Positions 1,535 to 53,272 of a DNA stretch of 56,937 bases are shown here, one piece after another. This DNA is from Bacteroidales bacterium (GTDB lineage: Bacteria > Bacteroidota > Bacteroidia > Bacteroidales > P3), in NCBI GenBank assembly GCA_017940465.1, contig JAGAYN010000030.1, positions 1 to 56,937 of the forward strand. The letters are read 5' to 3'. Every line of letters begins with the position of its first letter. Positions within the stretch are counted from its first letter, which is position 1. The notes beneath the pieces are model-generated. The model saw only the letters and a list, made by a program, of their open reading frames with translations. It made no database searches and was not told the origin of the DNA. Made by a program: the position numbers and the translations under genes.

Positions 1535-1612
1535 CATAAGCGTTCATATCGGTTCTCAGTCGAAGTAAATACTTAGGGGATACCAGGAGGATACTTAGAG
1601 GGTCGCTGGAGG
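1535..1612 (+). repeat. Repeat family A, copy 1: conserved core plus four 11-bp units
   Basis: The core at 1535-1568 (CATAAG...CATATCGGTTCTCAGTCG...) is shared with 21074 and 29428. It leads into four 11-bp units at 1569, 1580, 1591 and 1602: ATACTTAGGGG, ATACCAGGAGG, ATACTTAGAGG and GTCGCTGGAGG. It lies 34 bp before the -7 box of the next gene. Confidence 0.85.
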
Positions 1613-1645
1613 AGGGGATGATTTGGAGGGTTGCGGGAAAAGGTG

Positions 1646-1653
1646 TATCTTTG
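1646..1653 (+). promoter_or_regulatory. -7 box of the TIGR04076 gene
   Basis: TATCTTTG followed by CA. Transcription should start near 1659, leaving a leader of only about 8-20 nt before the candidate starts at 1667 and 1679. Confidence 0.6.
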
Positions 1654-1678
1654 CAGCCGTAAAGCAATGCACGGGAAT

Positions 1679-1981
1679 ATGTACGATGTAAGGATAACTG
1701 CCGTCCGCAAAGCGGATTACAAGGATTTGCAGGTGCGCTACGAGCGCCCGATAATGCATACGTGCGACGTGGAGGAGGGTCAGGAGTGGGTGAGCCGCGG
1801 CGGGTCGAAGCCGGAGGGGATGTGCGGGAGCGCGTGGGAGAGCATGCGGTGGTTTGTGGAGGAGTTGGCCGCAGGGCGTGGCGATTTCTACGACGGGTGG
1901 ATGCAGAATCCCCATTCGGCCATGATCAGCTGCAACGACGGGTTCCGCCCGGTGAGTTTCCTGCTGGAGCGGGTGGGGTGA
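1679..1981 (+). CDS. TIGR04076 family protein
   Basis: This is a 100-residue protein of unknown function. It begins MYDVRITAVRKADYKDL and ends DGFRPVSFLLERVG, with the conserved stretches EGMCGSAWESMRWFVEEL and FYDGWMQNP. I recognise this as the small TIGR04076 family of anaerobic bacteria. Conserved cysteines (HTCDVEEG, EGMCGSA, ISCNDG) suggest metal or redox chemistry, which is inference. I prefer the ATG at 1679 because the family starts with MYDV; an in-frame ATG at 1667 would add MHGN. It is monocistronic, with its own promoter at 1646 and a new promoter for the next gene at 2013. Confidence 0.8.
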   Translation: MYDVRITAVRKADYKDLQVRYERPIMHTCDVEEGQEWVSRGGSKPEGMCGSAWESMRWFVEELAAGRGDFYDGWMQNPHSAMISCNDGFRPVSFLLERVG

Positions 1982-2012
1982 ATATTTTTCATGCCGTTTG
2001 AAAAAAAAGTCG

Positions 2013-2020
2013 TACTTTTG
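2013..2020 (+). promoter_or_regulatory. -7 box of the EF-hand protein gene
   Basis: TACTTTTG followed by CA, giving a leader of about 30 nt to the ATG at 2057. No well-placed -33 TTTG is seen. Confidence 0.55.
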
Positions 2021-2056
2021 CAGCCTCATTGGCAACAAAGAAAACAACACAATATT

Positions 2057-4120
2057 ATGTCAAAGAAGAACAAGCTTGTTTCAAAAAGCGGCTATGAGTG
2101 GAAGTTCGGCATGGTGGGCGGTGTGACGCGTGTCAACATCGAGACCGCCGAGGACATAGCCCACCTGTATGAGTTGGACCAGAAGCTGTGGACGGTGTTG
2201 AGCTGTCCGGTGAAGGGTCTGGAGTTCGACGAGAAGACGCTCGCCATGCTGGACGCCGACAAGGACGGGCGCCTGCGTGTGAACGAGGTGGTGGCCGCCG
2301 CCGAGTGGCTGAAGAAGGTGCTGAAGGACCTGGGCTATGTGCTTCAGGGCAAGGACAGCATCGCTTTCGCCGACGTGCAGGCGGACACCGAGGAGGGCAG
2401 GCAGGTCATCGATTCGGCCCGTCTCATCCTCAAGGCCCTGGGGCTGGAGAAGGAGGAGATTTCGCTGGCCGAGGTGACGGAATACATGGCTGTGTTCGAG
2501 GAGAAGTGCCGCGCGGAGTACACGGCGCAGAACGCCGAGCCGTTCGAGCCCCCCTTCGGCGAGAAGAGCGACGAGGCGGAGGCCGCCGTGAACGCGGTGC
2601 GCAGCAAGGTGGCCGACTACTTCATGCGCTGCAAGCTGGTTCAGTTCGACGAAGAGGCCACCGCCGCGCTCGACGTACAGGTGGAACGTATCGCCGCCAT
2701 CAGCGGCAGCAACCTGAACGACAACCTGGAGGAGATCTCCACCTACCCCCTGGCACGTCCCGGCAAGGAGGCTATGCTCCCGCTGGCCGAGGGGTTGAAT
2801 CCCGCGTGGAAAGCCGCCATCGTCGCGGTGAAAGATCTGGCAGGTCTGGAAGGCGACAGCATTGGCGAGGAGGCATGGAACGAACTGCTGGGCAAGGTGG
2901 ACGCCTACATGGCCTGGAAGGCCGCCGGCGAGACCGCCATGAACGAGGCCGTGGCCGCACGGCTGGAAGAGCACAGCGCTGCCTTCGCTCCGGTGGAGAA
3001 ACTGCTTCGCCTCTGCCGCGACTTCTTCACGCTGCTGCACAACTACGTCGTGTTCAAGGATTTCTACAACAGGGCTCCCGGTACCGAGGCCGTCTTCCAG
3101 GCAGGTCAGCTGTACATCGACCAGCGCTGCTGCGAGCTGTGTGTCAAGGTGACCGATATGGGCAAGCAGCTGGCATCGGCCGGATTGAGCGGCATGTATA
3201 TCCTATACTGCCACTGCGTCTCCAAGGCGGGCCTGGGCGAGATGGACATCGCCGCCGTGGTCACCGCTGGCGATATCCGCAATTTCCGCGAGGGCAAGAA
3301 CGGTGTCTTCTACGACCGTTCGGGTCAGGACTGGGACGCCACCGTCACCAAGATTGTCGACAACCCCATCTCGGTGGGTCAGGCCTTCTGGAGCCCCTAC
3401 CGCAAGTTCGGCAACTGGGTGACCGACAAAATCAACAAAAGCGCCGAGGAGAAGGAGAGCAAGCAGTTCGACGACATGACCGCCAAGGCCGACACCGCCA
3501 GCACCGACCTGGCGGTCCAGGCCGCCGACGGAAAGCCTGCCGACGCCGTCGCGGCTCCCAAGCCTGCTTTCGACATAGCCAAGTTTGCCGGCATCTTCGC
3601 CGCCATCGGCCTGGCTGTGGGTGCGGTGGGTATGGCACTGGCCGCCGTGGCGAAGTTCCTGGTGTCGGCATGGTACAATCCGCTGATTGCCATCGCGCTG
3701 GTGGTGGTCGTCGTCAGCGGTCCCTCCATGCTGCTGGCCTGGCTCAAGCTGCGCAAGCGCAACCTCGGTCCCGTGCTGAACGCCAACGGATGGGCCATCA
3801 ACTCGATGGTGAAGGTGAACACCACCTTCGGCGCATTGCTCACATCGGTGGCCAAATACCCGAAAGTCGTGGGCAAAGACCCCCTGGCGGACAAGAAGAT
3901 GGCCTGGTGGAAGAAGTGCCTCATCTGGATTGTGGTGCTGGCACTGCTTGCCCTGGGCGTGTTCAAGCTGACGCAGCACCGCTGGCCGTGGCAGCCTGTT
4001 CCCGTGGTGGAAGAGGTGGAGGCTGCGGCGGAAGAGGCCGAGGCCGAGGCGACGGTTGCCGCAGAAGACATCGCGGTGGACGAGGCCGACCTTGGAACCG
4101 AGGAGCCCGTTGCCGAATGA
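2057..4120 (+). CDS. EF-hand-containing membrane protein of unknown function
   Basis: A 687-residue protein starting MSKKNKLVSKSG. A canonical 12-residue EF-hand loop lies at residues 66-77 (DADKDGRLRVNE), with acidic residues at positions 1, 3, 5 and 12 and Gly at 6, so calcium binding is likely. Residues of about 80-500 are largely helical with no family I recognise. Hydrophobic segments at roughly 508-565 (two passes, with a short polar turn) and 620-640 predict membrane anchoring near the C-terminus. The last 45 residues are strongly acidic (EEVEAAAEEAEAEATV). There is no Sec signal, so the large N-terminal part should be cytoplasmic. The stop overlaps the start of the next gene as ATGA, which suggests translational coupling. 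Function is unknown. Confidence 0.85.
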   Translation: MSKKNKLVSKSGYEWKFGMVGGVTRVNIETAEDIAHLYELDQKLWTVLSCPVKGLEFDEKTLAMLDADKDGRLRVNEVVAAAEWLKKVLKDLGYVLQGKDSIAFADVQADTEEGRQVIDSARLILKALGLEKEEISLAEVTEYMAVFEEKCRAEYTAQNAEPFEPPFGEKSDEAEAAVNAVRSKVADYFMRCKLVQFDEEATAALDVQVERIAAISGSNLNDNLEEISTYPLARPGKEAMLPLAEGLNPAWKAAIVAVKDLAGLEGDSIGEEAWNELLGKVDAYMAWKAAGETAMNEAVAARLEEHSAAFAPVEKLLRLCRDFFTLLHNYVVFKDFYNRAPGTEAVFQAGQLYIDQRCCELCVKVTDMGKQLASAGLSGMYILYCHCVSKAGLGEMDIAAVVTAGDIRNFREGKNGVFYDRSGQDWDATVTKIVDNPISVGQAFWSPYRKFGNWVTDKINKSAEEKESKQFDDMTAKADTASTDLAVQAADGKPADAVAAPKPAFDIAKFAGIFAAIGLAVGAVGMALAAVAKFLVSAWYNPLIAIALVVVVVSGPSMLLAWLKLRKRNLGPVLNANGWAINSMVKVNTTFGALLTSVAKYPKVVGKDPLADKKMAWWKKCLIWIVVLALLALGVFKLTQHRWPWQPVPVVEEVEAAAEEAEAEATVAAEDIAVDEADLGTEEPVAE

Positions 4121-5139
4121 GGCGCATCGGACTGTCGCTACTGCTGCTTATGACTACCTTGTCCGCCCAGAGTCAAGACACTGTGTTCTCCGATCACCCC
4201 ACCTTCACAGCCGCGTGGTGGAATGTGGAGAACCTCTTCGACCTGCGCGACGACCCCCATACCAACGACGACGACTTCACCCCGCAAGGGGCCTACCACT
4301 GGACGCGGCGCAAGCTGGACACAAAGATACAGGGGATATACAAGACGCTGTTGCAGATGGAGTTCCCCGATGTGGTGGGGTTGGCCGAGGTGGAGAATGC
4401 CTGGGTGCTGCGTGAATTGTGCAACGGCACACCGTTACGCCAGGCCGGCTACCGCTATGTGCACTACGACTCGCCCGACCGGCGTGGCATCGACTGCGCC
4501 CTGCTCTACCGTCGCGACCGCTTCCGCGTCACCTACAGCCGTCCGTTGCGGGTGTCCGACTCCGCGACAGGGTTCTTCACGCGCGACATCCTGCAGGTGG
4601 AGGGTGTCACTCCGCAGGGCGACACCATAGTCCTCTTCCTCAACCACTGGCCCTCCAAGCGCGGCGGCGACGAGGCCGACCGGCACCGTATGCGCATAGC
4701 GCAGAAGCTTCGCGGCCAGATGCTGAAACTGCACAGGCGCTACCCGCAGGCCGCCGTCATCGCGATGGGCGACATGAACAGCACCGCCGACGAGCCTGCC
4801 ATCGCCTCGGGAATGGGTTTCAGGGGCGACACGGTGAGCCCCGAGGGTATACGCAACCTCGGCTACCGACTGCCCGACGATTGGGGCAGCCACAAGTACC
4901 AAGGGCAGTGGCACTACATCGATGCCGTCTTCTTCCTGGCCGACGACAGTTGGAAGGTGCGTAAACTCAAGCTGATACGTTACGACCACCTCCTCACGCC
5001 CGAGGAGCATCGCCCCGGGGTGCGCCCCAAACGTACCAACCAGGGACCCAGATATGAGGGAGGCTTGAGCGACCATCTGCCGCTGTTGTTGCGCGTCGCC
5101 AGGGAGCGGTTCCGTCCCGGTGGGGATGAGGGGCGGTAG
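4117..5139 (+). CDS. Secreted endonuclease/exonuclease/phosphatase family protein
   Basis: A 340-residue member of the EEP (DNase I-like) fold. A signal peptide covers the first 19 or so residues (MRRIGLSLLLLMTTLSAQSQ). Family motifs are clear: WNVENLFD near the start, DVVGLAEVEN with the metal-binding Glu, GDMNSTADEP (Asp/Asn of the active site) and the terminal SDHLPLLL with the catalytic His. Substrates in the family are nucleic acids, phosphoinositides or phosphoesters, and the sequence does not decide between them. The start overlaps the stop of the EF-hand gene by 4 bases, so the two are probably one operon. An 11-bp tandem array starts immediately after the stop. Confidence 0.88.
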   Translation: MRRIGLSLLLLMTTLSAQSQDTVFSDHPTFTAAWWNVENLFDLRDDPHTNDDDFTPQGAYHWTRRKLDTKIQGIYKTLLQMEFPDVVGLAEVENAWVLRELCNGTPLRQAGYRYVHYDSPDRRGIDCALLYRRDRFRVTYSRPLRVSDSATGFFTRDILQVEGVTPQGDTIVLFLNHWPSKRGGDEADRHRMRIAQKLRGQMLKLHRRYPQAAVIAMGDMNSTADEPAIASGMGFRGDTVSPEGIRNLGYRLPDDWGSHKYQGQWHYIDAVFFLADDSWKVRKLKLIRYDHLLTPEEHRPGVRPKRTNQGPRYEGGLSDHLPLLLRVARERFRPGGDEGR

Positions 5140-5141
5140 CA

Positions 5142-5218
5142 ACTCCGAGTCAACTCCGAGACAACTCCGTATCAACTCCGAGTCAACTCCGAGTCGGTTT
5201 CGAGCCGGTTTCGCCAGG
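5142..5218 (+). repeat. Tandem array of seven 11-bp units upstream of aspS
   Basis: Five units of the type ACTCCGAGTCA start at 5142, 5153, 5164, 5175 and 5186. They are followed by two diverged units, GTTTCGAGCCG and GTTTCGCCAGG, at 5197 and 5208. The array starts 2 bases after the upstream stop codon and ends 14 bp before the -33 box. Confidence 0.9.
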
Positions 5219-5231
5219 GGGTGCTCTTTTA

Positions 5232-5263
5232 TTTGGCAAGATGGGGAAAATGTTGTATCTTTG
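5232..5263 (+). promoter_or_regulatory. aspS promoter
   Basis: TTTG at 5232-5235, a 20-bp spacer and TATCTTTG at 5256-5263. This close match to the Bacteroidota housekeeping consensus gives a leader of about 30 nt. Confidence 0.85.
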
Positions 5264-5298
5264 CAATTGGTAGAATGTAATGAAAAACGGATATATCT

Positions 5299-7053
5299 AT
5301 GTATAGGACAAATACTTGCGGCGAGTTGAGGCTCGCCAATCTGGGTCAGATCGTGACCCTTGCCGGCTGGGTGCAGCGCTCGCGCGACCTGGGCGGCATG
5401 ACTTTCATCGACCTGCGCGACCGCTATGGCATCACGCAGTTGGCATTCAACATGGAGACCGATGCCGCCCTTTGCGAACAGGCGCGCCGTCTGGGACGTG
5501 AATACGTGGTGCAGGCCACCGGCAAGGTCATTGAACGCAGCTCGAAAAACCCGAAGATCCCTACGGGCGATATTGAGATAGAGGTGCTGGAACTCAAGGT
5601 GCTCAACGAGGCCAAGACCCCGCCCTTCACCATCGAGGACCAGAGCGACGGCGGCGACGACCTCCGCATGCGCTACCGCTACCTCGACATCCGCCGCACC
5701 CCGGTGCGCCAGAACCTCGAGTTGCGCCACCGTATGGCCATGCTTGTGCGCAACTACCTTTCGGACAGGGACTTCCTCGAGATAGAGACTCCCATGCTCA
5801 TCAAGTCCACCCCCGAGGGTGCACGCGACTTCGTGGTGCCCAGCCGCATGAACCCGGGCGAGTTCTACGCCCTGCCGCAGTCGCCTCAGCAATACAAGCA
5901 GTTGCTGATGGTCAGCGGCATGGATCGCTACTTCCAGATTGTGCGCTGCTTCCGCGACGAGGACCTCCGCGCCGACCGCCAGCCGGAGTTCACGCAGGTG
6001 GACTGCGAGATGTCGTTCGTCGACCAGGAGGACGTGCTGCAGATGTTCGAGGGGCTTATACGCCACCTGCTGCTCGAACTGAAAGGTGTCGAGACAGGCC
6101 CCTTCCCGCGCATCACGTGGCACGAGGCCATGCGCCGCTTCGGCTCCGACAAGCCCGACACCCGCTTCGGCATGGAGTTCCGGGAGGTGACCGATGTGGT
6201 CAAGGGCCACGGCTTCGGTCTCTTCGACGGCAGCGAGCTCGTGGTGGGCATCGTGGCCGAAGGCTGCGCCGAGTATACCCGCAAGCAACTGGATGCGCTG
6301 ACCGATTTCGTCAAGCGTCCGCAGGTGGGTGCCGGCGGCATGGTCTATATCAAATACAACGCCGACGGCACGCTGAAGTCGTCCGTCGACAAGTTCTACG
6401 ACGCCGACGCCCTCAAGGCCATCGCCGACCGCATGGGGGCCAAGCCCAGCGACCTGATGCTGCTCCTCTGCGGCCCCGCCATGAAGACGCGCACCCAGCT
6501 CTGCGCCCTGCGCCTCGAGGTGGGTGGCCAGCTGGGTCTGCGCGACCCGCAGAAGTTCGCACCCCTGTGGGTGGTGGACTTCCCCCTGCTGGAGTGGGAC
6601 GAGGAGACGCAGCGCTACTACGCCATGCACCACCCCTTCACCGCCCCCAAGCCCGAGGACGAGGCCCTGCTCTCCGACCCCGCACGCTGGGGCGACATCC
6701 GCGCCAACGCCTACGACATGGTGCTCAACGGCAACGAGGTGGGCGGCGGCAGCATCCGTATCCACGACCGCTCGCTCCAGAACCAGATGTTCCACACCCT
6801 CGGCTTCACCGACGAACAGGCGGCCGCGCAGTTCGGCTTCCTGATGGATGCCTTCACCTACGGCGCTCCGCCCCACGCCGGGCTGGCCTTCGGCTTCGAC
6901 CGCCTCTGCTCGGTCTTCTCCGGCGCCGACAGCATACGCGACTTCATCGCCTTCCCGAAGAACAATGCGGGCCGCGACGTGATGTCCGGCTCGCCCAGCC
7001 CCATCGCCCGGGAGCAGCTCGAAGAGTTGCAGATAAAGCTCGATGTTAAGTAG
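5299..7053 (+). CDS. aspS: Aspartyl-tRNA synthetase
   Basis: Charges tRNA-Asp with aspartate in the cytoplasm. The 584-residue length and domain order fit bacterial AspRS. An N-terminal OB-fold anticodon-binding domain ([20 protein letters not shown]) is followed by class II motif 1 and motif 2 ([18 protein letters not shown]). The bacterial insertion (GAD) domain comes next, and then motif 3 (GLAFGFDRL). The start at 5299 sits about 35 nt after a strong promoter and gives the usual [10 protein letters not shown] beginning. The 3' end overlaps menA by 11 bases, so aspS, menA and ubiE are expected to be cotranscribed. Confidence 0.97.
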
Positions 7054-8656: not shown

Positions 8657-8662
8657 CGGATG

Positions 8663-8806: not shown

Positions 8807-8828
8807 CACCTTGAAATTTTGACTGTTC

Positions 8829-20300: not shown

Positions 20301-21078
20301 CTTTGTGCAGGCCGAGGGGCTGGGCATCTCGCGCCAGGCTTTCGACGAGGTGCTCGACATCCTGGGCCGCCAGCCCACCATGGACGACCTCTCCACCCTG
20401 CTGGCCATGTGGGAGAGCAACGGCAGGCAGCAGAGCCTCTACGGCTGGCTGCGCGGGCAGCACCATGCCGTGCACCGCGACGACTACCTCTACAGCGGCA
20501 GCGACGAGCACCGCGCCATCAAGGAGCCGCGGGTCAAGGAGTGCCTCGACATTGCCAGGACCCTCCTTCAAAATTCCCATTCCGCAATCCTCAATTCAAA
20601 TTTTCCCTCCGGCAGGCTGCTCTACATGGTGGGCAACGTCAGCAGCGAGTTCGCCGACGGCGAGTACGCGCGCCGCTGCCTCCACCTGGTGGGTGCGCCG
20701 CTGGCGGCCTCGGGGCACGAGGAGGACTGCCGCTACATCGAGCTCATCCTCCAGTCGCTGCAGGAGGCATCCCTGCTGGAGGCAAGCGCGGCGGTGGGGG
20801 AGGGGGGACTCTTCTGTTCGTTGCTGCGGTTCGTGGCGCCGAGGGGTTTCGACATCCTGGCGCCGCGCGAGGTGAGGCTGGACGCCTTCCTCTTCGGCGA
20901 GGAGCCCGGCCGCTACCTGGCCCTCCTGCCCGAGAGCCAGGACGACGCCTTCCTGTCCAAGCTCACCGAGGCGCAACTAAACTGCTGTTTCTTAGGACGT
21001 ACCACACAGAACCGAATCCTGGTGGACGGGTTCGATTTCGGCACCGTGGAGGCGTTCCTGGGAACAAACGGTTCATAA
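20281..21078 (+). CDS. AIR synthase-related (PurL C-terminal-like) protein, short form
   Basis: A 265-residue protein starting MSEGAVDFVQAEGLGIS. The second half resembles the ATP-binding C-terminal half of PurM/PurL domains: RLLYMVGNVSSEFADGEYARR, a SAAVGEGGLFCSLLRF stretch where PurL has a DVSDGGL motif, then DAFLFGEEPGRYLALLP and a final FLGRTTQNRILV. Full PurL is about 1200 residues, so this is at most a detached regulatory or degenerate relative. Bases 20566-20610 are AT-rich and resemble the intergenic filler of this genome, adding about 15 residues in frame (LQNSHSAILNSNFPS). It overlaps the phosphatase gene. Its stop codon lies inside repeat family A. The family call is tentative. Confidence 0.6.
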   Translation: MSEGAVDFVQAEGLGISRQAFDEVLDILGRQPTMDDLSTLLAMWESNGRQQSLYGWLRGQHHAVHRDDYLYSGSDEHRAIKEPRVKECLDIARTLLQNSHSAILNSNFPSGRLLYMVGNVSSEFADGEYARRCLHLVGAPLAASGHEEDCRYIELILQSLQEASLLEASAAVGEGGLFCSLLRFVAPRGFDILAPREVRLDAFLFGEEPGRYLALLPESQDDAFLSKLTEAQLNCCFLGRTTQNRILVDGFDFGTVEAFLGTNGS

Positions 21079-21151
21079 GGGGTCATATCGGTTCTCAGTC
21101 GAAGTAAATACTTAGAGGATACCTATGGGATACTTAGAGGATCCCCAGGGG
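21074..21151 (+). repeat. Repeat family A, copy 2
   Basis: Core CATAAG...CATATCGGTTCTCAGTCG... followed by 11-bp units ATACTTAGAGG, ATACCTATGGG, ATACTTAGAGG and ATCCCCAGGGG at 21108, 21119, 21130 and 21141. The stop codon TAA of the preceding gene lies inside the first bases of the core. Confidence 0.85.
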
Positions 21152-25098: not shown

Positions 25099-25190
25099 TG
25101 ACGGGGAGGGGAAGGAGAGGGGAAGAACATGATGCCTGCAAGGTATTGTTTGTTAGTTAGTTGCAAAACTGCTGTTTGGGACGTTTTTCG
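25099..25190 (+). repeat. Repeat family B, copy 2, before mutB
   Basis: 11-bp units TGACGGGGAGG, GGAAGGAGAGG and GGAAGAACATG at 25099, 25110 and 25121, then the tail ATGCCTGCAAGG... with TTGCAAAA. Confidence 0.8.
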
Positions 25191-25251
25191 GAAAAAATCT
25201 CAAAAAATTTTCGCCTTTTTTCGCAGAAAATAGCCGCGTGGAAATGAAAAT

Positions 25252-29380: not shown

Positions 29381-29427
29381 CAAACATTTCCCGACATGGA
29401 AAAAAAATGTTTTCCGGACAAGTGGGT

Positions 29428-29494
29428 CATAAGCGTCCATATCGGTTCTCAGTCGAAGTAAATACCTAGGGGATACCTGGAGGATACCTATGGG
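29428..29494 (+). repeat. Repeat family A, copy 3
   Basis: Core CATAAG...CATATCGGTTCTCAGTCG... followed by 11-bp units ATACCTAGGGG, ATACCTGGAGG and ATACCTATGGG at 29462, 29473 and 29484. It lies between two divergent promoters. Confidence 0.85.
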
Positions 29495-29538
29495 GTCCCG
29501 GCCGGGAGGGGAGAAAAATGCGGGAAAAACAACTTTTT

Positions 29539-30616: not shown

Positions 30617-30700
30617 ATACCTGGAGGGGTAGGAGAGGGGAAGAAGAGGGTCCGTTCAAGATGCTGGAAACCATTCTGTTGTAGAAGTGCAAAAATGATG
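30617..30700 (+). repeat. Repeat family B, copy 3, before mutS
   Basis: 11-bp units ATACCTGGAGG, GGTAGGAGAGG and GGAAGAAGAGG at 30617, 30628 and 30639, then the tail with CTGTTGTAGAAGTGCAAAAA. The first unit is identical to a unit of family A. Confidence 0.8.
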
Positions 30701-30830
30701 GGATTTTCGGTTTTGGGGCGAAAAAATGACGGGATTTTCCGGAGGAGGGTGGGAGGGGTGTAAGTCGCTGGGAGCCATGGAGTTTTGGGAAAATGTCGCC
30801 TGGGTGCCTCCGCGGTTCGGGAAAAATGCG

Positions 30831-33613: not shown

Positions 33614-33686
<73 letters not shown>

Positions 33687-33710
33687 CCGGTCTCCAAAAT
33701 CAGAGAATAG

Positions 33711-33796
33711 GCTCTGGTGGTGGAATGGTAGACACGAGGGACTTAAAATCCCTTGCCCGCAAGGGCGTGTGGGTTCAAGTCCCACCCGGAGTACCA
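33711..33796 (+). tRNA. tRNA-Leu (TAA)
   Basis: Class II tRNA with a long variable arm (TTGCCCGCAAGGGCG). Acceptor GCTCTGG/CCGGAGT, anticodon loop TTAAAAT (anticodon TAA), T arm GTGGG-TTCAAGT-CCCAC, discriminator A. CCA is encoded at 33794-33796. Confidence 0.96.
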
Positions 33797-33803
33797 CGCA
33801 AAC

Positions 33804-33876
<73 letters not shown>

Positions 33877-33990
33877 CAAAGAAGAGTAGTTTGAAATGCA
33901 GCAGCAGCGGCAAAGCCCATGTCCAAACCACGCCGCAACCCCCGGGTTGAGGCCGATGCACGTTGCTGGAACACAGATGCGAGATAACAT

Positions 33991-34063
33991 GTCTTGGTAG
34001 CTCAGCTGGTAGAGCAATTGACTCTTAATCAATGGGTCCAGGGTTCGAATCCCTGCCAGGACA
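33991..34063 (+). tRNA. tRNA-Lys (CTT)
   Basis: Acceptor GTCTTGG/CCAGGAC, anticodon loop CTCTTAA (anticodon CTT), T loop TTCGAAT, discriminator A, no encoded CCA. It follows a 114-base spacer containing a small CAACCC-CC-GGGTTG hairpin and no visible gene. Confidence 0.96.
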
Positions 34064-34070
34064 CTTGTCA

Positions 34071-34147
34071 CGGGGTGTAGCGCAGTTGGCTAGCGCGCCA
34101 CGTTCGGGACGTGGAGGCCGGAAGTTCGAGTCTTCTCACCCCGACCA
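34071..34147 (+). tRNA. tRNA-Pro (CGG)
   Basis: Acceptor CGGGGTG/CACCCCG, anticodon stem CCACG/CGTGG with loop TTCGGGA (anticodon CGG), discriminator A. CCA is encoded at 34145-34147. Confidence 0.96.
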
Positions 34148-34165
34148 AACGCCACTCCACCGCAA

Positions 34166-34238
<73 letters not shown>

Positions 34239-35520: not shown

Positions 35521-35618
35521 ATACCGGCAGCACACCAGGAGGGGAAGGAGAGGGGAAGAACATGATGCCTTCAAGAGGCTGGTGAACAGTCTGTTGTGAG
35601 ACTGCAAAAAAGCCCCTT
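35521..35618 (+). repeat. Repeat family B, copy 4, before the C10 protease gene
   Basis: 11-bp units ATACCGGCAGC, ACACCAGGAGG, GGAAGGAGAGG and GGAAGAACATG at 35521, 35532, 35543 and 35554, then the tail with CTGTTGTGAGACTGCAAAA. Confidence 0.82.
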
Positions 35619-35743
35619 TCCAGTTCTTTTTTTCAAAAAATGCCCCGCTTTTTTTCTTCCCGCTGAGGTGCAAGAAAACCAGCAAGATAGGTACAAATTA
35701 TCAAAAAAAAGCAATTTTTTTCCCCCAGGTGGAAAAAAAAATG

Positions 35744-44403: not shown

Positions 44404-44460
44404 TGGTGGGGGTTCCGTCCGGCCTCCTCGGGGTGCCCTGGATTCTTCATTCTTCATTCT

Positions 44461-44718
44461 TCATTTCTCATTCGCAATTTTCTGCATCATGGCCTTGCAT
44501 TCCACGCCCTGCTGGCGGCCGAGGAGGCCTGTGAGGGCGTTGATGCGGTCGGCCGAGCCTTCCACGATGAGCGAAATGACGGCCACGGAGCGCTCCTTGA
44601 ACGGGAGGCCCTGGCGGCAGAGGATGATGTCGGCATGGTCCGACAGGATGCGGTTGATGATGTCCGCCTTGCGGCGGTCGCCAATGAGTATGCTTATTGT
44701 CCCTATTCGCTTCTCCAT
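44461..44718 (-). CDS. TM1266-type iron-only hydrogenase system putative regulator
   Basis: An 85-residue ACT-like/NikR-like small protein: MEKRIGTISILIGDRRKADI, then LSDHADIILCRQGLP, SVAVISLIVEGSADRINALTGLLG and GVECKAMMQ. It is found beside hydrogenase maturation genes and is called a putative regulator; its mechanism is not established. It has a near-perfect promoter (44759-44789) and precedes hydG by 189 bases. The end of the gene overlaps a short tandem of TCATTCT units (44442-44470). Confidence 0.85.
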   Translation of the reverse strand: MEKRIGTISILIGDRRKADIINRILSDHADIILCRQGLPFKERSVAVISLIVEGSADRINALTGLLGRQQGVECKAMMQKIANEK

Positions 44719-44826: not shown

Positions 44827-44910
44827 AGGGCAGGAGGGGTAGGAGAGGGGAAGAAGATGATGCCTGCAAGGTGCTGTTCGCCAGCGGGTTGCATTTCCGC
44901 TAAAATGGCC
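44827..44910 (+). repeat. Repeat family B, copy 5, between divergent operons
   Basis: 11-bp units AGGGCAGGAGG, GGTAGGAGAGG and GGAAGAAGATG at 44827, 44838 and 44849, then the tail ATGCCTGCAAGGTGCTG. The remaining 44911-45038 holds no gene I can see, only the -7 box of the next gene at its end. Confidence 0.75.
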
Positions 44911-45038
44911 CTCCGGACGGGAAATCCACGGGAAATATCCGGTTCGTGCAGTGTGTTGATATACAGGGTGTTGTGCTCTGTAGGCTGTTTTTTTGTAATT
45001 ATGTTTCATTTCTTACCTCGCAATTCCAAAAAAAAATG

Positions 45039-46397: not shown

Positions 46398-46417
46398 ACC
46401 TGAAAAATATCCGAATT

Positions 46418-47980: not shown

Positions 47981-48063
47981 TTGTACGTGGCTGTATAACA
48001 GCGATTTGCGTCAGATATGCTAATTTTTTGCATTTTATTCACTCGCAATTCGTTTTTTCTTCG

Positions 48064-48071
48064 TACTTTTG
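48064..48071 (+). promoter_or_regulatory. -7 box of the barrel protein gene at 48087
   Basis: TACTTTTG followed by CA. The short distance to ATG 48087 gives a leader of about 9 nt. Confidence 0.55.
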
Positions 48072-48086
48072 CACTCTGATTTAACA

Positions 48087-48857
48087 ATGAAAACGATGAA
48101 GAAAACGATGCTTTTCCTGATGGCGGTGGCCTGCATCTCGGTGGCCAGCGCGCAGATAGAGGTTGGAGTGCAGGGCGGCTATTTCACGCAGAAAGCCTCC
48201 AACTCGGAAAACAAGCAGTACAACTCCGCCACCAACTGGCTTGCCGGCATCCAGGTGGGCTATAAAATCAAGAAGTGCCTCTATGTCGGCGTTTCGGCCA
48301 GCTACCTGAGCAACGCGACCGAGAACATGAAGGATTTCGACAGCCTTTTCCATCCGGCTGCGCCGTTCCCCAACAACATGAACCCCGTGATCGACCACAA
48401 GCAGCGCTACACCCGCACCGGCTGGGAGGTGTGCCCCACGGTGGAATACGAGTTTGTCCGCTTTGGCAACATGCACTTCAGCCTTCAGCTGCAGGGCACC
48501 ATCCGCTCGCTGGGCTCCACCACCTTCAAGGAGAGCTACACCACCCTCCTCACGCCCAACCCGCTGGAGTTGGTGGACGAAGAGCCGAAGGACGACCACC
48601 GCACGAGTTTCATGTGGGGCGTCTCGCTGAAGCCGACGCTCTCCTATGAGTTCACCCCCCACATCAGCCTCGAGGTGATGCTCGACTTCCTCTCGATCGG
48701 CTACATCTCCATCACCGAGACCGTTGATCCCAAGCAGGAAGGCGTGGAGCCCTCCAAGGACTACAACAGCACCTTCTATGCCGGCGCCAACACCTTCACC
48801 GAGGTGCTCCAGTGGGAAAGCCCCCTGCTGAAGATCGGGATGAAGTACACGTTCTAA
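48087..48857 (+). CDS. Outer-membrane beta-barrel family protein
   Basis: A 256-residue protein starting MKTMKKTMLFLMAVACISVASAQ, whose signal peptide is cleaved before IEVGVQGGYF. Alternating strands (GIQVGYKIKKCLYVGVSASYL, VCPTVEYEFVRFGNMHFSLQL written over consecutive strands) and a terminal Phe (LLKIGMKYTF) predict an outer-membrane barrel of about ten strands. It starts close after its promoter, and the ATPase gene follows after 23 bases. Function unknown. Confidence 0.83.
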   Translation: MKTMKKTMLFLMAVACISVASAQIEVGVQGGYFTQKASNSENKQYNSATNWLAGIQVGYKIKKCLYVGVSASYLSNATENMKDFDSLFHPAAPFPNNMNPVIDHKQRYTRTGWEVCPTVEYEFVRFGNMHFSLQLQGTIRSLGSTTFKESYTTLLTPNPLELVDEEPKDDHRTSFMWGVSLKPTLSYEFTPHISLEVMLDFLSIGYISITETVDPKQEGVEPSKDYNSTFYAGANTFTEVLQWESPLLKIGMKYTF

Positions 48858-48880
48858 CGTTCACCTAAGACATACCACCG

Positions 48881-50467
48881 ATGCTCACCGCCAATCGTGA
48901 ACTCTACATCGCCCATTGCGACGATGGCAACCTCTGCATCAATGGCCGCATGGCCAACCGTCACGGCCTGGTGGCCGGCGCCACCGGTACCGGCAAGACC
49001 GTCACCCTCCAGGTGCTGGCCGAGACCTTCTGCCAGGCCGGCGTGCCTTGCTTCATGGCCGACATGAAGGGCGACCTCAGCGGCATCAGCCAGGCCGGCC
49101 GGATGTCCTCATTCATCGAGAAACGCAAGGACGCCTTCGGCATCCCCAACCCCGAGTTCCAGCCCTGCCCCGTGCGCTTCTTCGACGTCTTCGGCGAGCA
49201 GGGACACCCCATCCGCGCCACGGTGAGCCAGATGGGTCCGCAACTGCTCTCGCGCCTGATGGGCCTCAACGAGACGCAGGCCGGCGTGCTCAACATCGTC
49301 TTCCGCATCGCCGACGACCGCGGCCTCCTCATCCTCGACATCAAGGACCTGCGGGCCATGCTCGACTACGTCAGCAAGCACGCCAAGGAATACACCACAC
49401 AGTACGGCAACATCTCCACCGCCACCGTCGGCGCCATTCAACGCGCCATCCTGCAGCTGGAGAGCCAAGGGGCCGACCGCTTCTTCGGCGAGCCCGCTTT
49501 CGACATCTTCGACCTACTGCAGACCGAAGGGGGCAAGGGCATCATGAACGTGCTGGCCGCCGACAAGCTGATGCTCCAGCCCAAGCTCTACAGCACCTTC
49601 CTCCTCTGGCTCATGAGCGAGCTCTACAGCACCCTGCCCGAGGTGGGCGACATGGAGCTGCCCAAGCTGGTCTTCTTCTTCGACGAGGCGCACATGCTCT
49701 TTGACGACACCTCCAAGGCCTTGGTGGACAAAATCGAGCAGGTCATCCGCCTCATACGTTCCAAGGGCGTGGGCATCTACTTCGTCACCCAAAGCCCCAC
49801 CGACATCCCCGAGAACATCCTCGGACAGCTCGGCAACCGCATCCAGCACGCCCTCCGCGCCTACACCCCGAAGGACCAGAAGGCCGTGCGCACCGCCGCC
49901 GACACCTTCCGCCCCAACCCAGCCTTCAAGACCGACGAGGCCATCATGAACCTCGAGACCGGCGAGGCACTGGTCAGTTTCCTCGACGAGAAAGGCGCCC
50001 CCGCCATCGTGCAGCGCGCCAAGATTCTCTTCCCGCTGTCGCAGATCGGTGCCATCACGCCCGAGCAGCGCACAGCCATCACGCGTTCCAGCCGCCTGGC
50101 GGGCAAGTACGACACCATGATCGACCGTGAGAGTGCCTTCGAGGTGCTCCTGCGCGAAGCCGAGGAAGCCGCCGTGGCCGTGGTGGAGGAGCCGGACGAC
50201 AAGCCCGCCCGCACCTCCAAAACCACCCGCGAGGCCGCCCCCAAGGCCGAGAAAAAGAAGTCCGGCGTCATGTCCAAGGTGATGAAAGCCGTCCTCACGG
50301 CCGTCACCGCCACCGTGGCCACCTCCGTCGGCACCGCCGTCAGCAACAAAGTCACCGGCAAGAAGAGCAAGTCCTCCACCTCCACCGGCCAGAAGGTCAT
50401 CAAGAACGCCACCTCCGCCGCCACCCGCACGCTCACCCGCGACATCCTCGGCAACCTCATCAAGTAG
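48881..50467 (+). CDS. HerA-like ATPase of the DUF853 (YjgR) family
   Basis: A 528-residue cytoplasmic ATPase of the HerA/FtsK superfamily. Walker A is GATGTGKT (about residues 33-40), Walker B LVFFFDEAHML (about 265-275), and a sensor-like stretch YFVTQSPTDIPENILGQLGNR follows. A low-complexity Ala/Thr/Lys-rich tail (about 430-510) is typical of YjgR. Cellular role is unknown; relatives are DNA-translocating ATPases, but no nuclease partner (NurA) is encoded nearby. It lies 23 bases after the barrel gene and probably shares its transcript. Confidence 0.9.
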   Translation: MLTANRELYIAHCDDGNLCINGRMANRHGLVAGATGTGKTVTLQVLAETFCQAGVPCFMADMKGDLSGISQAGRMSSFIEKRKDAFGIPNPEFQPCPVRFFDVFGEQGHPIRATVSQMGPQLLSRLMGLNETQAGVLNIVFRIADDRGLLILDIKDLRAMLDYVSKHAKEYTTQYGNISTATVGAIQRAILQLESQGADRFFGEPAFDIFDLLQTEGGKGIMNVLAADKLMLQPKLYSTFLLWLMSELYSTLPEVGDMELPKLVFFFDEAHMLFDDTSKALVDKIEQVIRLIRSKGVGIYFVTQSPTDIPENILGQLGNRIQHALRAYTPKDQKAVRTAADTFRPNPAFKTDEAIMNLETGEALVSFLDEKGAPAIVQRAKILFPLSQIGAITPEQRTAITRSSRLAGKYDTMIDRESAFEVLLREAEEAAVAVVEEPDDKPARTSKTTREAAPKAEKKKSGVMSKVMKAVLTAVTATVATSVGTAVSNKVTGKKSKSSTSTGQKVIKNATSAATRTLTRDILGNLIK

Positions 50468-50487
50468 TCTGCGCAGATTCCTGCCGC

Positions 50488-50600
50488 ACTCCTGTCACAC
50501 TCCTGTCACACTCCTGGAGGGGAAGAACAAGGGAAGAACATGATGCCTCCAACCCGCTGAAAACCACCCTGTTGTAAACCTGCGATTTTCGCCCCGAAAG
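50488..50600 (+). repeat. Repeat family B, copy 6, with a five-unit 11-bp array
   Basis: Units ACTCCTGTCAC, ACTCCTGTCAC, ACTCCTGGAGG, GGAAGAACAAG and GGAAGAACATG at 50488, 50499, 50510, 50521 and 50532, then the tail ending CTGTTGTAAACCTGCGATTTT. It lies between convergent genes. Confidence 0.85.
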
Positions 50601-50618
50601 CCGTTTTTGTTTCAAAAA

Positions 50619-50655
50619 AACACAACCCCTTGCCACGGATGGCAAGGGGTTGATA
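50619..50655 (-). terminator. Terminator of the DUF2490 gene
   Basis: A perfect 13-bp stem, CAACCCCTTGCCA with its complement (50623-50652), 4-base loop, followed on the minus strand by a run of T. Confidence 0.93.
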
Positions 50656-50676
50656 CATAGTGCGTTGCACCCGTAT

Positions 50677-51525
50677 TCAGAACGAATAGGTATAGTTGGC
50701 TCCCAGCGTGCCCACGAAACCGGTCCGGTGGGTATAGGATTTCAGTTTGGTACCCTCCTTGTTCGCGTCCAGTGCGCGGCTGCTCACGCGGTCCAGCAGC
50801 AGGAAGAAGGTCAGCGTACCCGACTGCGACAGGCGGTAGTCGGCTCCGATGCTGGCGCGCAAACGGTTGATATACGTGCCGTTGAACCCCTCGAGGAACC
50901 ATCCGGCCTCACCCTCCTGGGTGTGGGTCCCGGGGAGGTACCACTCGGTGCCCTCGGCGTTGCAGTCGGCGTTCACCGTGGGGCCGCTGAAGGTGGTGCG
51001 CAGTTCCACGTAGGCATAGGGCGTCCATCCCGTCTGCCTCCAGCCCTTGTACTTGGCCAGCAGCCGGCTTTTCAGCTCCACTGCGTTGGTGGCGCTCTGG
51101 TAGGTGTTGAAGCTTCCCGCGCGGTGGGTGAACTGCAGCCGCTCCTTCAGGCCGATGTTCCACTGCGCGAGGTGCAGTGTCCCCGTGGCGTCCAGCATCA
51201 GCCTGTGGCGGGTGCTCTTGAAGGACGACGAGCTGCTGCTGTAGGGGGCTATGAAGGCATAGCCCGCGCCCAGCTTGATGTTGGGGTGGATTTTGTAGGA
51301 GGCCCCGAGGGTGGTCTGCAGGCGGTCGAAGCCGGTGAAGTTGTTGTCCAGCCTCACCTCCTCCGAAAGCGACACATGCAGGCCGCGTGTTACCTTCTTG
51401 TCTGCCGTGGCCGACAGGCGCAGGCCGAACTCGGCGTCCAGGCTCTCCTCGGTCTGTGCCTGGAGCGTCTGGGGGATAAGCGCGCAGAGTGCCGCCAGTA
51501 TCGTAAGTCGTCGCTTGTTCATCAT
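50677..51525 (-). CDS. DUF2490 outer-membrane barrel protein
   Basis: A 282-residue protein with a signal peptide (MMNKRRLTILAALCALIPQTLQAQ). The pattern EFGLRLSATADKKVTRGLHVSLSEEVRLDNNF, broken into strands, fits DUF2490, as do the repeated antiparallel strands and a terminal Phe (TLGANYTYSF). The family is a Bacteroidota outer-membrane barrel of unknown role. It starts 9 bases after the stop of the carbohydrate-binding lipoprotein gene, so the two form an operon ended by a strong terminator. DUF2490 genes near cell-surface carbohydrate-binding proteins are common, by my recollection. Confidence 0.85.
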   Translation of the reverse strand: MMNKRRLTILAALCALIPQTLQAQTEESLDAEFGLRLSATADKKVTRGLHVSLSEEVRLDNNFTGFDRLQTTLGASYKIHPNIKLGAGYAFIAPYSSSSSSFKSTRHRLMLDATGTLHLAQWNIGLKERLQFTHRAGSFNTYQSATNAVELKSRLLAKYKGWRQTGWTPYAYVELRTTFSGPTVNADCNAEGTEWYLPGTHTQEGEAGWFLEGFNGTYINRLRASIGADYRLSQSGTLTFFLLLDRVSSRALDANKEGTKLKSYTHRTGFVGTLGANYTYSF

Positions 51526-51534
51526 GTTGAATGT

Positions 51535-53184
51535 TTATTTGTTGCTGCTGTAGGATGTCAGGGGGATTGCTGTGCCGCCCTCGGTGGATCCTCCTTCTAT
51601 AAGGGTCGCGTCGAAGCGGGATGTGCCACCGCTCACGGTCGTACCTGCCGTCAATGCCAGGTCGCCGCTTCCCGCCACCACCAGCGTTCCGCTTCCGCCA
51701 CCAGGTGCTTTGAAGGAGTATTCGGCTCCGCCTGCGGCAAGTGTGTGCCAGGATCCCTGCCGCCACCCTGCCGTTTGCCGGCAGCTTACGGCGAGGTCGG
51801 CTCCCTTTTCCAAGCCGCCTATGGCTATCATAGTGCCCCCATTCATCGAGAATACGAACCCTTTCCCGCTGTTTACCGCCTTGTGTACCCCGTCGGTACT
51901 AATGGCATACAGCAAGCCTGCGGTCAGTGTCACGTCGCCACCCGCGTCCAATCCGTCGTTGCCGTCGGAGTGGCCGCAGAGGTATCCACCTTGTATATTG
52001 ATGTGGTTCTTGGCGTTTACGGCGTTGCTTGTGGAGGAATAGCCGTAGAGTTCGCCGGCGGTGATGGTGATATTCCCTTTGGATTCCACGGCTTCATTGT
52101 GGGTACATCTGGAGGTTACTGTGCCGCCACTGACCGTTATGTCGCCCTGGAACTTGAGCCCTTTGGCCGATACGGTGTCGGTTGCGGTGGTGAAGTCTGT
52201 GCCGGACACGGTGATATCCACCGAGCCCCCGTTGAATAATGCCGAGCCATTGCTGTTGATGCCCTTGCCACCCTGTCCGGATACGGTGATGTTCAGCGAG
52301 CCGTTGTTCATGATGAAGGCGAGGCCTGCGCGGATACCGGCCGGGCCACCGTAGGAGAGGCTGGCGGTGTCGTAGCCGCTGTTGCCGGAGGCATGGACGG
52401 TGGTCTGCCCGCCGTCGAACCGCACCAGAGTGTCGCTGGCGAGGCCTTTCTTCATGTTGCCGGAGACCTGCACGTCGATTGTCCCGCCGGCGATGAGGAT
52501 GTATCCCTTGCCACGTATGCCGTGCCCGTTGGTGGAGGAGGCGTGGATGGAGGGTGTGCCGGAGATATGGACGTAGGAATCGGATGTGACGGCGCCCTTG
52601 CCCGTGGCGGTGACGGTCAGGGAACCGCTGCCGGTCAGCAGGATGCCTCCTTCGGCAAAGAGGGCGGCCTTCTCGTCTTCGAGGGTGGGTGTGGCGGTAT
52701 ACGAGGGGCCGTCGGCGAGGGTGTTGCTGCCGTTGAGGAGCAGTTTCACGGTCTTCCCGCTGCCGGGCTGGGAGGAGGGTCCCTGGATGTTGATGGCGGC
52801 GCCGCGGGGGTTGGTGAGGGACAGGCCGTTGAGCGCCAGGGCTTGTTCGCGGTCGCTGTAGACTTTGAAGTAGCCGTCGGAGGCGGAACCGGTGAGGATG
52901 TAGGCCACTGTGGAGCCGCTGCTGTTGGTGATGGTGACGCCGTTGCCGGAGATTTGGGCGCTGATGCCTGCGCTGTCGCCTGTGACGGTGGCGGTGCCGC
53001 CGGGGGAGAAGACGACGACCACGCGGCGCTCGTAGCTGTCCAGCGACAGGTTGCCGCTGCCGGTGGTGTCGATATCGACCAGGGAACCGCTGCCACCGGT
53101 ATCGGAGGCGCTGCCGATTTCATCCTTTCCGCAGGAGGAAACGAGGGCGAAAACGGCCAGCAAAAGAAGCAGTTTTTTTTGCAT
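51535..53184 (-). CDS. Lipoprotein with Cthe_2159-type carbohydrate-binding beta-helix
   Basis: A 549-residue protein. The lipobox LVSSC ends at Cys18 and is followed by GKDEIG, so it is probably surface-anchored. The remainder is a long parallel beta-helix rich in short Gly/Thr/Ser strands such as GKGAVTSDSYVHISGTP, GIRGKGYILIAGGTIDV and GLKFQGDITVSGGTV. This is the pattern of the carbohydrate-binding domain family of Cthe_2159, which binds cellulose or acidic sugars in Clostridium thermocellum. The ligand here is not deducible. No clear promoter was found; copy 7 of repeat B lies just upstream. Confidence 0.82.
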   Translation of the reverse strand: MQKKLLLLLAVFALVSSCGKDEIGSASDTGGSGSLVDIDTTGSGNLSLDSYERRVVVVFSPGGTATVTGDSAGISAQISGNGVTITNSSGSTVAYILTGSASDGYFKVYSDREQALALNGLSLTNPRGAAINIQGPSSQPGSGKTVKLLLNGSNTLADGPSYTATPTLEDEKAALFAEGGILLTGSGSLTVTATGKGAVTSDSYVHISGTPSIHASSTNGHGIRGKGYILIAGGTIDVQVSGNMKKGLASDTLVRFDGGQTTVHASGNSGYDTASLSYGGPAGIRAGLAFIMNNGSLNITVSGQGGKGINSNGSALFNGGSVDITVSGTDFTTATDTVSAKGLKFQGDITVSGGTVTSRCTHNEAVESKGNITITAGELYGYSSTSNAVNAKNHINIQGGYLCGHSDGNDGLDAGGDVTLTAGLLYAISTDGVHKAVNSGKGFVFSMNGGTMIAIGGLEKGADLAVSCRQTAGWRQGSWHTLAAGGAEYSFKAPGGGSGTLVVAGSGDLALTAGTTVSGGTSRFDATLIEGGSTEGGTAIPLTSYSSNK

Positions 53185-53189
53185 TCGGG

Positions 53190-53272
53190 ACGTTTTTGGA
53201 AGTTTTATAACAGTGTGATGTCCAGTGTGTTATTGGTATCATGTTCTTCCCCTCTCCTTCCCCTGTTGGAGT
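53190..53272 (-). repeat. Repeat family B, copy 7 (minus strand)
   Basis: Read on the minus strand: units ACTCCAACAGG, GGAAGGAGAGG and GGAAGAACATG, then a tail with CTGTTATAAAACTTCCAAAAA. Further upstream on that strand CCCTCTCCCCTACCCC can pair with the array, making a long hairpin behind the gene at 53300. Confidence 0.75.

Follow-up and report, generated by a model that had tools for sequence, protein, structure and literature searches.

Among the described systems closest to the elements reported here is the BrickBuilt MITE of Porphyromonas gingivalis, which, in the excerpted report, has 23-nt units, 19 copies and IS5-like terminal inverted repeats (PMC4596501). The likeness, as far as that excerpt goes, lies in a Bacteroidales host, always intergenic placement, multiple copies, a leader and a tail around tandem units, and a limited host range (PMC4596501). 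The elements described here differ in being composed of 11-bp modules, in reaching about 113 copies in family A alone and in forming several families per genome. Moreover, unlike the BrickBuilt of the excerpt, arrays of the genome under study (the host genome) showed no inverted partner within 130 bp, and relatives keep the period with changed sequences.

A second parallel is the parC site. According to the excerpted text of one account, R1 ParR requires a minimum of two direct repeats of 11 bp and the DNA wraps around ParR, and parC repeats differ in sequence between systems, with lengths of 10, 11, 17 and 20 bp among plasmids (PMC9426499). Our elements are likewise 11-bp direct repeats of varying sequence. 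Whereas parC, as described in that excerpt, is a plasmid site beside parM, our elements are many dispersed chromosomal sites (113 A copies), and a ParM-type search, itself uninformative, found no partner gene.

REP elements are short hairpins beside their transposase. REP/BIME sequences with Y1 (RAYT) genes resemble our elements in being dispersed, intergenic and mosaic, and are present in the host genome too; however, our families A to D are not hairpins and do not lie directly beside Y1 genes. SSRs, VNTRs and minisatellites share the tandem units and the intergenic placement, but family A has a near-fixed number of ordered units in dispersed blocks, with no off-phase units seen. Foldback-type elements contain sub-repeats, and the palindromes of one relative, G072, are similar in that their arms are tandem 11-mers, although they are short and bacterial. 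In the titles and abstract openings surveyed, 11-bp intergenic element families were not described in Bacteroidales.

Results

Arrays and elements in the window

The first-pass annotation had placed eleven arrays of 11-bp units in the intergenic DNA of the window, the whole 56,937-nt stretch analysed here, and we recovered all eleven at the same coordinates, in 11-bp register and outside called genes. It had also described the units as differing between arrays but looking related. The 11-bp steps stood, whereas the units turned out to be modules of multi-copy dispersed families, which had been missed. The arrays are of three types: A (1569, 21108 and 29462), B (15832, 25099, 30617, 35521, 44827, 50488 and 53272 minus) and C (5142). 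Several B arrays consist of successive 11-bp modules (GGAAGGAGAGG, GGAAGAACATG, ATGCCTGCAAG) rather than strict tandem copies, and Tandem Repeats Finder assigned period 11 to six of the eleven arrays (1569, 5142, 21108, 29462, 30617 and 50488). With up to three mismatches, the B core was matched at six of the seven B places, and the A head was matched at all three A places, with 0.00 expected in shuffled windows in each case; chance does not account for these matches. The elements are as follows.

1530..1612, plus strand: family A element; head (ATAAGSGTYCA, TATCGGTTCTC, AGTCGAAGTAA), three ATACYTANNGG-type units and an end unit; left end approximate
5142..5218, plus strand: family C array; five AACTCCGAGTC-type units and two diverged units, immediately 3' of a stop codon
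15832..15955, plus strand: family B element; 11-bp modules and A/T tracts; 3' end approximate
21069..21151, plus strand: family A element; left end approximate
25099..25211, plus strand: family B element; 3' end approximate
29423..29505, plus strand: family A element; left end approximate
30617..30729, plus strand: family B element, missed by the B-core pattern; 3' end approximate
35521..35644, plus strand: family B element; 3' end approximate
44827..44939, plus strand: family B element; 3' end approximate
50488..50622, plus strand: family B element, preceded by two ACTCCTGTCAC units, with convergent genes on either side; 3' end approximate
53160..53272, minus strand: family B element, extending into the start region of the called gene that follows; 3' end approximate

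Period 11 and fixed spacing in the host genome

The strict 11-bp period and the intergenic setting proposed from the window extend to the genome at large. In an 857-kb sample, lag 11 gave 76 intergenic and 2 genic matches, and it dominates intergenic DNA, where lag 7 gave 22 matches, lag 10 gave 2 and lag 12 none; lag 22 (42 intergenic matches) is a harmonic of 11, as is lag 33. Lag 23, the BrickBuilt unit length, had no intergenic match in the sample, and shuffled intergenic DNA gave approximately none at the nine lags tested. The sample comprises 40 non-random stretches from contigs already carrying A or B matches, so its rates may run slightly high; genes were called by a home-made codon model (coding 0.82).

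At least four dispersed families (A to D) with elements of about 60-120 bp are present in the host genome. Family A has about 113 copies genome-wide (111-114 by three patterns), each about as long as eight 11-mers. The 857-kb sample holds 39 A, 43 B, 15 C and 11 D copies, and none of these 108 elements lies inside a called gene; a looser B pattern gave 47 matches, some of them apparently chance matches in coding DNA. Coding repeats were rejected, as the units contain stop codons by eye and a period of 11 is not divisible by 3.

Spacing within the elements is kept more strictly than sequence. The ATACYT motif of family A falls in one phase in 188 of 188 cases. The +44..+66 stretch of family B stands at offset 0 in 42 of 42 copies (+44..+55 alone in 41 of 42), and its outer stretches do so in only 26-28 of 42, many of the others being shifted by 10-12 bp. 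Over 106 columns, 34 of 43 B copies align free of gaps at a mean column identity of 70%, an alignment that omits the eight weakest copies and one running past the stretch end. The A/T content of the 3' part of family B is periodic at 10.5 bp, with none of 1000 column permutations as strong; the helical periodicity of its information content was not significant. The suggestion that the period itself matters is thus well supported, since one period carries unrelated units both here and in close relatives, and spacing persists through base changes.

The first-pass annotation had offered expansion by slippage of a fixed unit length as its alternative. As the main process this does not hold, because elements are scattered as whole blocks whose unit number is almost constant. 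VNTR/SSR slippage was rejected, as 53 of 63 A copies have exactly three units, and units are little more alike within a copy (0.18) than between copies (0.11). A broader mutational origin, in which a lineage-specific tendency to 11-bp duplication through replication slippage or template switching is followed by spread through recombination, we consider improbable. Some arrays do look locally made, such as four perfect ATGACTCCTAG units in the relative G088, where the gap measures 106 bp and the matching host gap is 35 bp and free of arrays; four units occur in 9 of 63 A copies, and one A copy has about ten. Nevertheless, the A units are position-specific as well as near-fixed in number, the B spacing is kept though its modules are no longer mutual copies, and lags 10 and 12 are nearly absent from intergenic DNA.

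Tests at the RNA level

Folds of six A-D elements from the host genome were no better than shuffles (z -0.7 to +2.5), and family B displayed neither covariation beyond shuffles nor consensus pairs, which points to DNA rather than RNA. A short CTG..CAG stem in B pairs in 76% of copies, compared with 12-44% for slid versions. We therefore rejected an RNA hairpin or riboswitch on the grounds of shuffle-like folds, absent B covariation beyond shuffles and no Rfam match at the arrays. Rho utilisation sites were likewise rejected, as the transcript does not consistently correspond to the C-rich strand. For RNA-level elements as a whole, be they Rho utilisation sites, terminators, riboswitches or sRNAs, many elements do stand close behind stop codons, and relatives have hairpin forms, four inverted pairs folding at z -9 to -19 (arrays of two other relatives gave -0.8 and +0.8). 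Set against the folds, covariation and Rfam results in the host genome, the occurrence on either transcript strand, and the purine-rich rather than C-rich character of families B and D in the usual gene sense, we find this reading very hard to sustain.

Tests for mobility and partner genes

In the search for MITE-type terminal inverted repeats, no inverted partner was found within 130 bp of any of 78 lag-11 arrays of the host genome; in named close relatives, one was present for 8 of 24 array matches. As a measure of target-site duplication, the longest flanking repeat around 58 three-unit A copies averaged 3.0, near the control value of 2.6 in re-paired flanks. Flanking repeats of 7-8 bp occurred at 4 copies (about 0.6 expected) and of 6 bp at 1 (3.8 expected).

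The host genome carries six Y1 transposase genes, five of them with other hairpin repeats beside them by eye; no hairpin repeat was noticed at the sixth locus, L274, where the open frame used to define the flanks is possibly not the gene. Families A to D directly adjoin none of the six. Two of them have family A at about 0.9 and 1.2 kb, a proximity near chance by our own estimate. Membership of REP/RAYT was rejected, as six A-D folds lacked a hairpin core and no copies flank the Y1 genes. A StbA_N (ParM-type) search gave no match in the host genome and none in the control genomes either, and is uninformative.

Gene context

An element adjoins 200 of 650 called genes. Two gene clusters have 5/6 members adjoining elements; judged by their sequence starts, they resemble a glycosyltransferase and a large surface-type protein, respectively, and not a transposase. 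The proposal that most arrays lie upstream of a promoter -7 box in the same orientation was borne out in part. At nine of the eleven arrays a -7-like box of matching orientation lies 34-182 bp downstream (it is absent within 400 bp at 50488 and 53272 minus), and 43 of 58 elements in tandem gaps are co-oriented with the genes (43:15). Against a promoter link, convergent gaps also hold elements, at least one occupied gap leaves no evident space for a promoter, the bias of family A is weaker (13 with genes, 6 against), and no helical phase of elements relative to the -7 box was found. Promoter-phased activator sites were rejected for this lack of phase.

Relatives share the period but not the units

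Comparison of related genomes revealed the same period in fifteen relatives (678 kb), with 45 intergenic and no genic lag-11 matches, in units often unrelated to those of the host genome. Lag 11 was their commonest intergenic lag, with lag 7 close behind (35), although in unsplit counts from named close relatives lag 7 exceeded lag 11 (32 vs 24); lag 7 is common outside close relatives too. The per-genome count omits six short or masked loci (L159-L164, of which L161 and L164 are all N). Four genomes (G022, G122, G103 and G052) had no array in 20 kb each, and farther relatives had almost none (2 in 982 kb). Array-poor relatives stand at 81% AspRS identity or below. A further comparison covered 13 chosen genomes. 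The B pattern was found in 1 of 295 genomes, a set with no other genus member; across 80 named Bacteroidota loci, a B profile gave a single weak, coding-like match (E 0.04); and the A head had no match in named genomes and viral contigs, the window's own record possibly being excluded. The 11-bp-stepped palindromic family of G072 has a unit pair matched 122 times forward and 122 in reverse there, and not at all in seven other genomes searched. On the best reading, the element class is for the most part limited to close relatives.

The relative G099, whose proteins average 79% identity across 110 orthologs, shares several element sites and orientations with the host genome, each species having its own unit type there. 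At four orthologous gaps, however, whole blocks were gained or lost (1-19 bp vs 88-151 bp); this comparison dropped 46 syntenic gaps with both sides below 60 bp, and on reading, two of the four cases classed as "own only" turned out to be shared. In an earlier synteny set from five relatives, 18 gaps could be used, and in two of these the array was confined to the relative. The family C array at 5142 was absent by eye in four relatives that share its upstream gene; the AspRS-start search (30 loci) was off target in several, and only readable loci were judged, by eye.

These results bear on the possibility that the elements are host-maintained architectural or regulatory sites, bound at gene borders by a lineage-specific nucleoid- or segregation-type protein in a ParR-parC-like manner, the sites co-evolving and their spread being a side effect. 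Elements occupy 98 of 236 gaps of at least 100 bp in the 857-kb sample, and this occupancy, the 43:15 bias, the sites and orientations common with G099 while units changed together, and the phased A/T content of B would fit. The fact that elements are cleanly gained and lost from one species to another, the presence of four or more unit types in a single genome, the lack of phase to promoters and the absence of a ParM-type match, albeit with an uninformative control, speak against it. We hold this as a possible but less favoured explanation.

Discussion

The elements are multi-copy, intergenic, quantised in 11 bp nearly without off-phase indels, and species-specific in sequence. The 11-bp style is common to close relatives, and whole blocks have been gained or lost at some sites. 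The reading we prefer, to which we would give about an even chance, is that they are dispersed intergenic elements, about 60-120 bp long, of protein-binding 11-bp modules, one per helical turn. Since close relatives keep the 11-letter step with quite different letters, the data suggest that the unit spacing itself is read by some putative protein. As 11 bp is about one turn of the double helix, each module most likely corresponds to one protein contact per turn, which would line up the sites of an element on a single, slowly twisting face of the helix.

The modules may then be double-stranded-DNA sites of at least one protein that forms polymers or multimers along DNA. Each family could be spread and homogenised by such proteins, or else by a linked activity of transposition or conversion. 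Module sequence would drift with the proteins, and DNA geometry would fix the 11-bp pitch. A single sequence-specific protein is unlikely to read all modules, because four or more unit types occur side by side in the host genome. We propose, tentatively, that the elements form a new class on bacterial chromosomes, one whose defining trait is geometry and not sequence: strings of 11-bp modules with lineage-specific, filament-forming DNA-binding readers, sequence turnover and an invariant pitch, with sites in about two-fifths of the larger gaps.

A period kept while sequence is lost across species is an unusual case in which nature itself tests how helical phase constrains protein-DNA arrays. 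The host group consists of uncultured herbivore gut bacteria, whose many sister species provide ready-made variants. If a reader of the 11-bp step were found, it would define a new system, either for mobilisation or for chromosome-wide architecture.

Dispersed repeat families

The window forms contig C26 of a 2.24-Mb assembly in 56 contigs from an uncultured Bacteroidales-type bacterium, whose nearest named relatives, including Ca. Colimorpha onthohippi (81% identity in AspRS, our protein yardstick for kinship), have record titles mostly naming ruminant and horse gut. The eleven arrays of the window are members of dispersed repeat families:

Arrays starting at 1569, 21108 and 29462: family A
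Array starting at 5142: family C
Other seven arrays: family B

All eleven were present in exact 11-bp register and outside called genes, as the first-pass annotation had claimed, and the -7-like box that it had placed downstream of most arrays stood 34-182 bp downstream in nine of them. The window also carries a six-tRNA gene cluster (33614-34238) and, beside genes, C runs of at least 9 nt (~510-520, 1386-1398, ~21303) as possible length-variable tracts.

With up to three mismatches, the head of family A, TATCGGTTCTCAGTCGAAGTAA, has 111 matches in the genome (113 and 114 by other patterns), three of them in the window; the reversed pattern, used as control, has none. Framed on its tandem units, the family reads ATAAGSGTYCA, TATCGGTTCWC, AGTCGAAGTAA, three times ATACCTANNGG and GTCCCTGCCGG, preceded by a TGGTYC stretch, for about eight 11-mers in total. 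The unit number is three in 53 of 63 distinct copies and four in nine; one copy has nine, this longest array reaching ten on reading further. The TGGTYCATA motif stood at -17 in 57 of the 63, and up to 60 bp from the head all 188 ATACYT motifs fell in one phase. Another repeat, GTTCGGAGGGCCTCACCCCCC..., directly abuts some copies, at 1-70 of the window and after copies in the stretches L032, L081 and L098; TTTCAAGAGAGGGGGCGTGGAA follows it in the window and L032.

Family B runs from purine-rich 11-mers through ATGCCTNCAAG, a CTG..CAG module and CCTGTTGCAAA to A/T-rich stretches; a loose core pattern matched 47 times in the genome versus 2 in the control, some of the 47 looking like chance matches in coding sequence. 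Family C reads AAGTCCGAGAC AACTCCGTRTC AACTCCGAGTC AACTCCGAGTC, and family D repeats AGTTAWAGAAC about four times before units that resemble those of A.

Period 11 between genes

Self-matches (17 of 22 bases at a given lag) were counted in 857 kb, comprising the window and 40 stretches of 20 kb from contigs chosen as already carrying A or B matches, with genes from our own caller (coding fraction 0.82). The first-pass annotation had made its case depend on other periods being rarer and on enrichment between genes: period 11 led, with 76 intergenic against 2 genic matches. Lag 10 gave 2 intergenic and 1 genic, lag 12 gave 0 and 33 (the latter codon-type), lag 7 gave 22 and 8, and lag 22, a harmonic of 11, gave 42 and 2; shuffled intergenic DNA gave about none. 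By class, 35 of the 78 lag-11 places were A, 6 were B and 37 were others, including C, D and a few left unclassed. Lag-7 arrays, such as the ATTCTTC heptamer array at window 44442-44473, are the second commonest non-harmonic intergenic class here and occur beyond close relatives too.

The sample held 39 copies of A, 43 of B, 15 of C and 11 of D, none inside called genes, and 98 of its 236 gaps of at least 100 bp contained such an element or a lag-11 array. Where both neighbours were known and co-directional, 43 of 58 elements shared the orientation of the genes (A 13/19, B 17/25, C 8/9, D 5/5; p ~0.0003 by our own arithmetic). Convergent and divergent gaps hold elements too. The distance from element to -7-like box had no helical phase in the 39 elements with a box before a gene (Rayleigh p 0.10 to 0.78).

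Evidence for constrained spacing in family B

The first-pass annotation had proposed that the period itself matters, and family B supports this: the frame is kept while bases change. With the eight weakest copies and one running past a stretch end left out, 34 of 43 copies, entered as fixed-length pieces, gave a gap-free alignment of 106 columns with a mean column identity of 70%. One of the 43 copies lacked flank; all 42 others had the tail stretch +44..+66 at offset 0, and for its first part alone the figure was 41 of 42. Outer stretches were looser, with offset 0 in 26-28 of 42 and many remaining copies shifted by 10-12 bp. Such many substitutions with few off-phase shifts are the strongest evidence for constrained spacing. 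The A/T-rich stretches have a 10.5-bp period, equalled in 0 of 1000 column permutations; the information content of B had no significant helical periodicity.

Distribution among relatives

When one mismatch was allowed, the family A pattern was found in one genome out of 190 from the taxonomic family; when three were allowed, among 120 genomes, the relative G099 gave 31 matches and eleven others 1-3 each, about the level of the reversed control. Among 13 genomes, the B core pattern matched 71 times in this genome, 44 in G099, 81 in G073, 15 in G041, 72 in G088 (control 10), once each in G091 and G107 and in none of six others.

Period 11 is wider than any single family. In 678 kb taken as stretches from 15 relatives, 45 lag-11 arrays lay between genes and none within them, spread over 11 of these genomes; their units include ATGACTCCTAG, TGCATGTACGG, CATCGTTCAAC and AGGCGTTGATC. 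Intergenic lags 10, 12 and 7 gave 3, 4 and 35. In 520 kb of G099, including 120 kb also in that set, lag 11 gave 32 intergenic and 3 genic and lag 7 gave 15 and 24. Around AspRS in 80 named loci, with counts not split by gene, those with AspRS identities of at least 82% had 24 lag-11 arrays in 406 kb (in 11 of the 26), those at 77-81% had one in 274 kb, those at 73-76% none in 55 kb and those at 72% or below one in 652 kb. For the most part, then, the 11-bp trait is limited to close relatives at about the level of the genus; its border is inexact because genus members reach down to ~80% AspRS identity. Lag 7, with 32, 9, 0 and 25 in the same bins, is thus not specific to close relatives.

Gain, loss and palindromic versions

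Across 28 gaps syntenic with G099, an element was present in both genomes in 5, only here in 4, only in G099 in 2 and in neither in 17. On reading, two of the four found only here proved shared in diverged form, leaving four clean gains or losses: 97 versus 10 bp (A) and 151 versus 19 bp (B) present here, and 88 versus 16 bp and 145 versus 1 bp present in G099. By eye, the family C array of the window was absent in four relatives sharing the gene upstream of AspRS. At the shared sites read, position and orientation agree, the unit type is the species' own and the flanking module sometimes differs; many sites are therefore older than their present sequences, and the changes look concerted rather than independent.

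Some relatives carry inverted pairs of arrays, and each of the four that we folded gives a long stem composed of 11-mers (z -9 to -19). An inverted partner accompanied 8 of 24 array matches in named close relatives versus 0 of 78 in this genome, and none of 55 arrays in G088, G120, G113 and G099. In the relative G072, a palindrome unit pair gave 122 forward and 122 reverse matches (~60 loci if two matches fall per arm) and none in seven other genomes searched. Of eight copies tested, four had arms 34-42 bp long and no more than one mismatch, the other four being less regular, and two of nine copies read by eye bore a different module on one arm. One such element of 11-mers lies at L302 ~1460-1545, with outer units such as TACGGAGTCCC. 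Relatives of family A in G099 (L177, L181, L283, L292 and others) have the 28-bp palindrome CATCATTTCCCATCGATGGGAAATGATG or variants as left module.

Classical hairpin repeats also occur in this genome, by eye beside most of its Y1 transposase genes. At L086:3300-5400 (contig C10:23300-25400), a RAYT-type Y1 gene sits amid a dense cluster of REP-like hairpins, which are of the TACGCCGTAGGCG and GCCCCGATGGGGC types and point either way, and window 1-400 holds the hairpin-like, REP/BIME-like segments GCCTCGAAGAGGC, CGTCTCGGAGAGACG and CCCCACACAAGCGAAGCGCAGTGTGGGG, in two near-identical copies.

Mode of action

A reading as RNA elements was rejected: the folds of six elements of this genome did not exceed those of shuffled sequences (z -0.7 to +2.5), RNAalifold found no consensus pairs in B, and Rfam had no family match at the arrays, its gathering-score matches in the window being the six tRNAs only. 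The CTG..CAG stem, the only one visible in B, is paired more frequently than its slid versions, with no covariation beyond shuffles.

Among published elements, the nearest in style is BrickBuilt of P. gingivalis, likewise intergenic and multi-copy with leader, tandem units and tail; unlike in the present elements, its units are 23 nt long and its ends IS5-like (PMC4596501). A survey of prokaryotic repeats reports an extreme excess of 6-11 bp tandem repeats in the intergenic DNA of three named archaea, and a weaker one in several other genomes; its passages on these single out no one period (PMC4060949). Nearest in mechanism is ParR-parC: R1 ParR requires at least two 11-bp repeats, and parC-type repeats of other plasmids are 10, 17 or 20 bp (PMC9426499). 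A step of 11 bp lies near the helical period; for phased A-tracts, PMC3940949 gives 10-11 bp.

In our preferred reading, which we hold at about even odds, the elements would act as double-stranded DNA, each 11-bp module being a contact for a multimerising protein, one per helical turn. Copy number, gain and loss in blocks and palindromic relatives favour a mobilising enzyme as the reader of these modules; shared sites, prevalence and orientation favour a host architectural protein.
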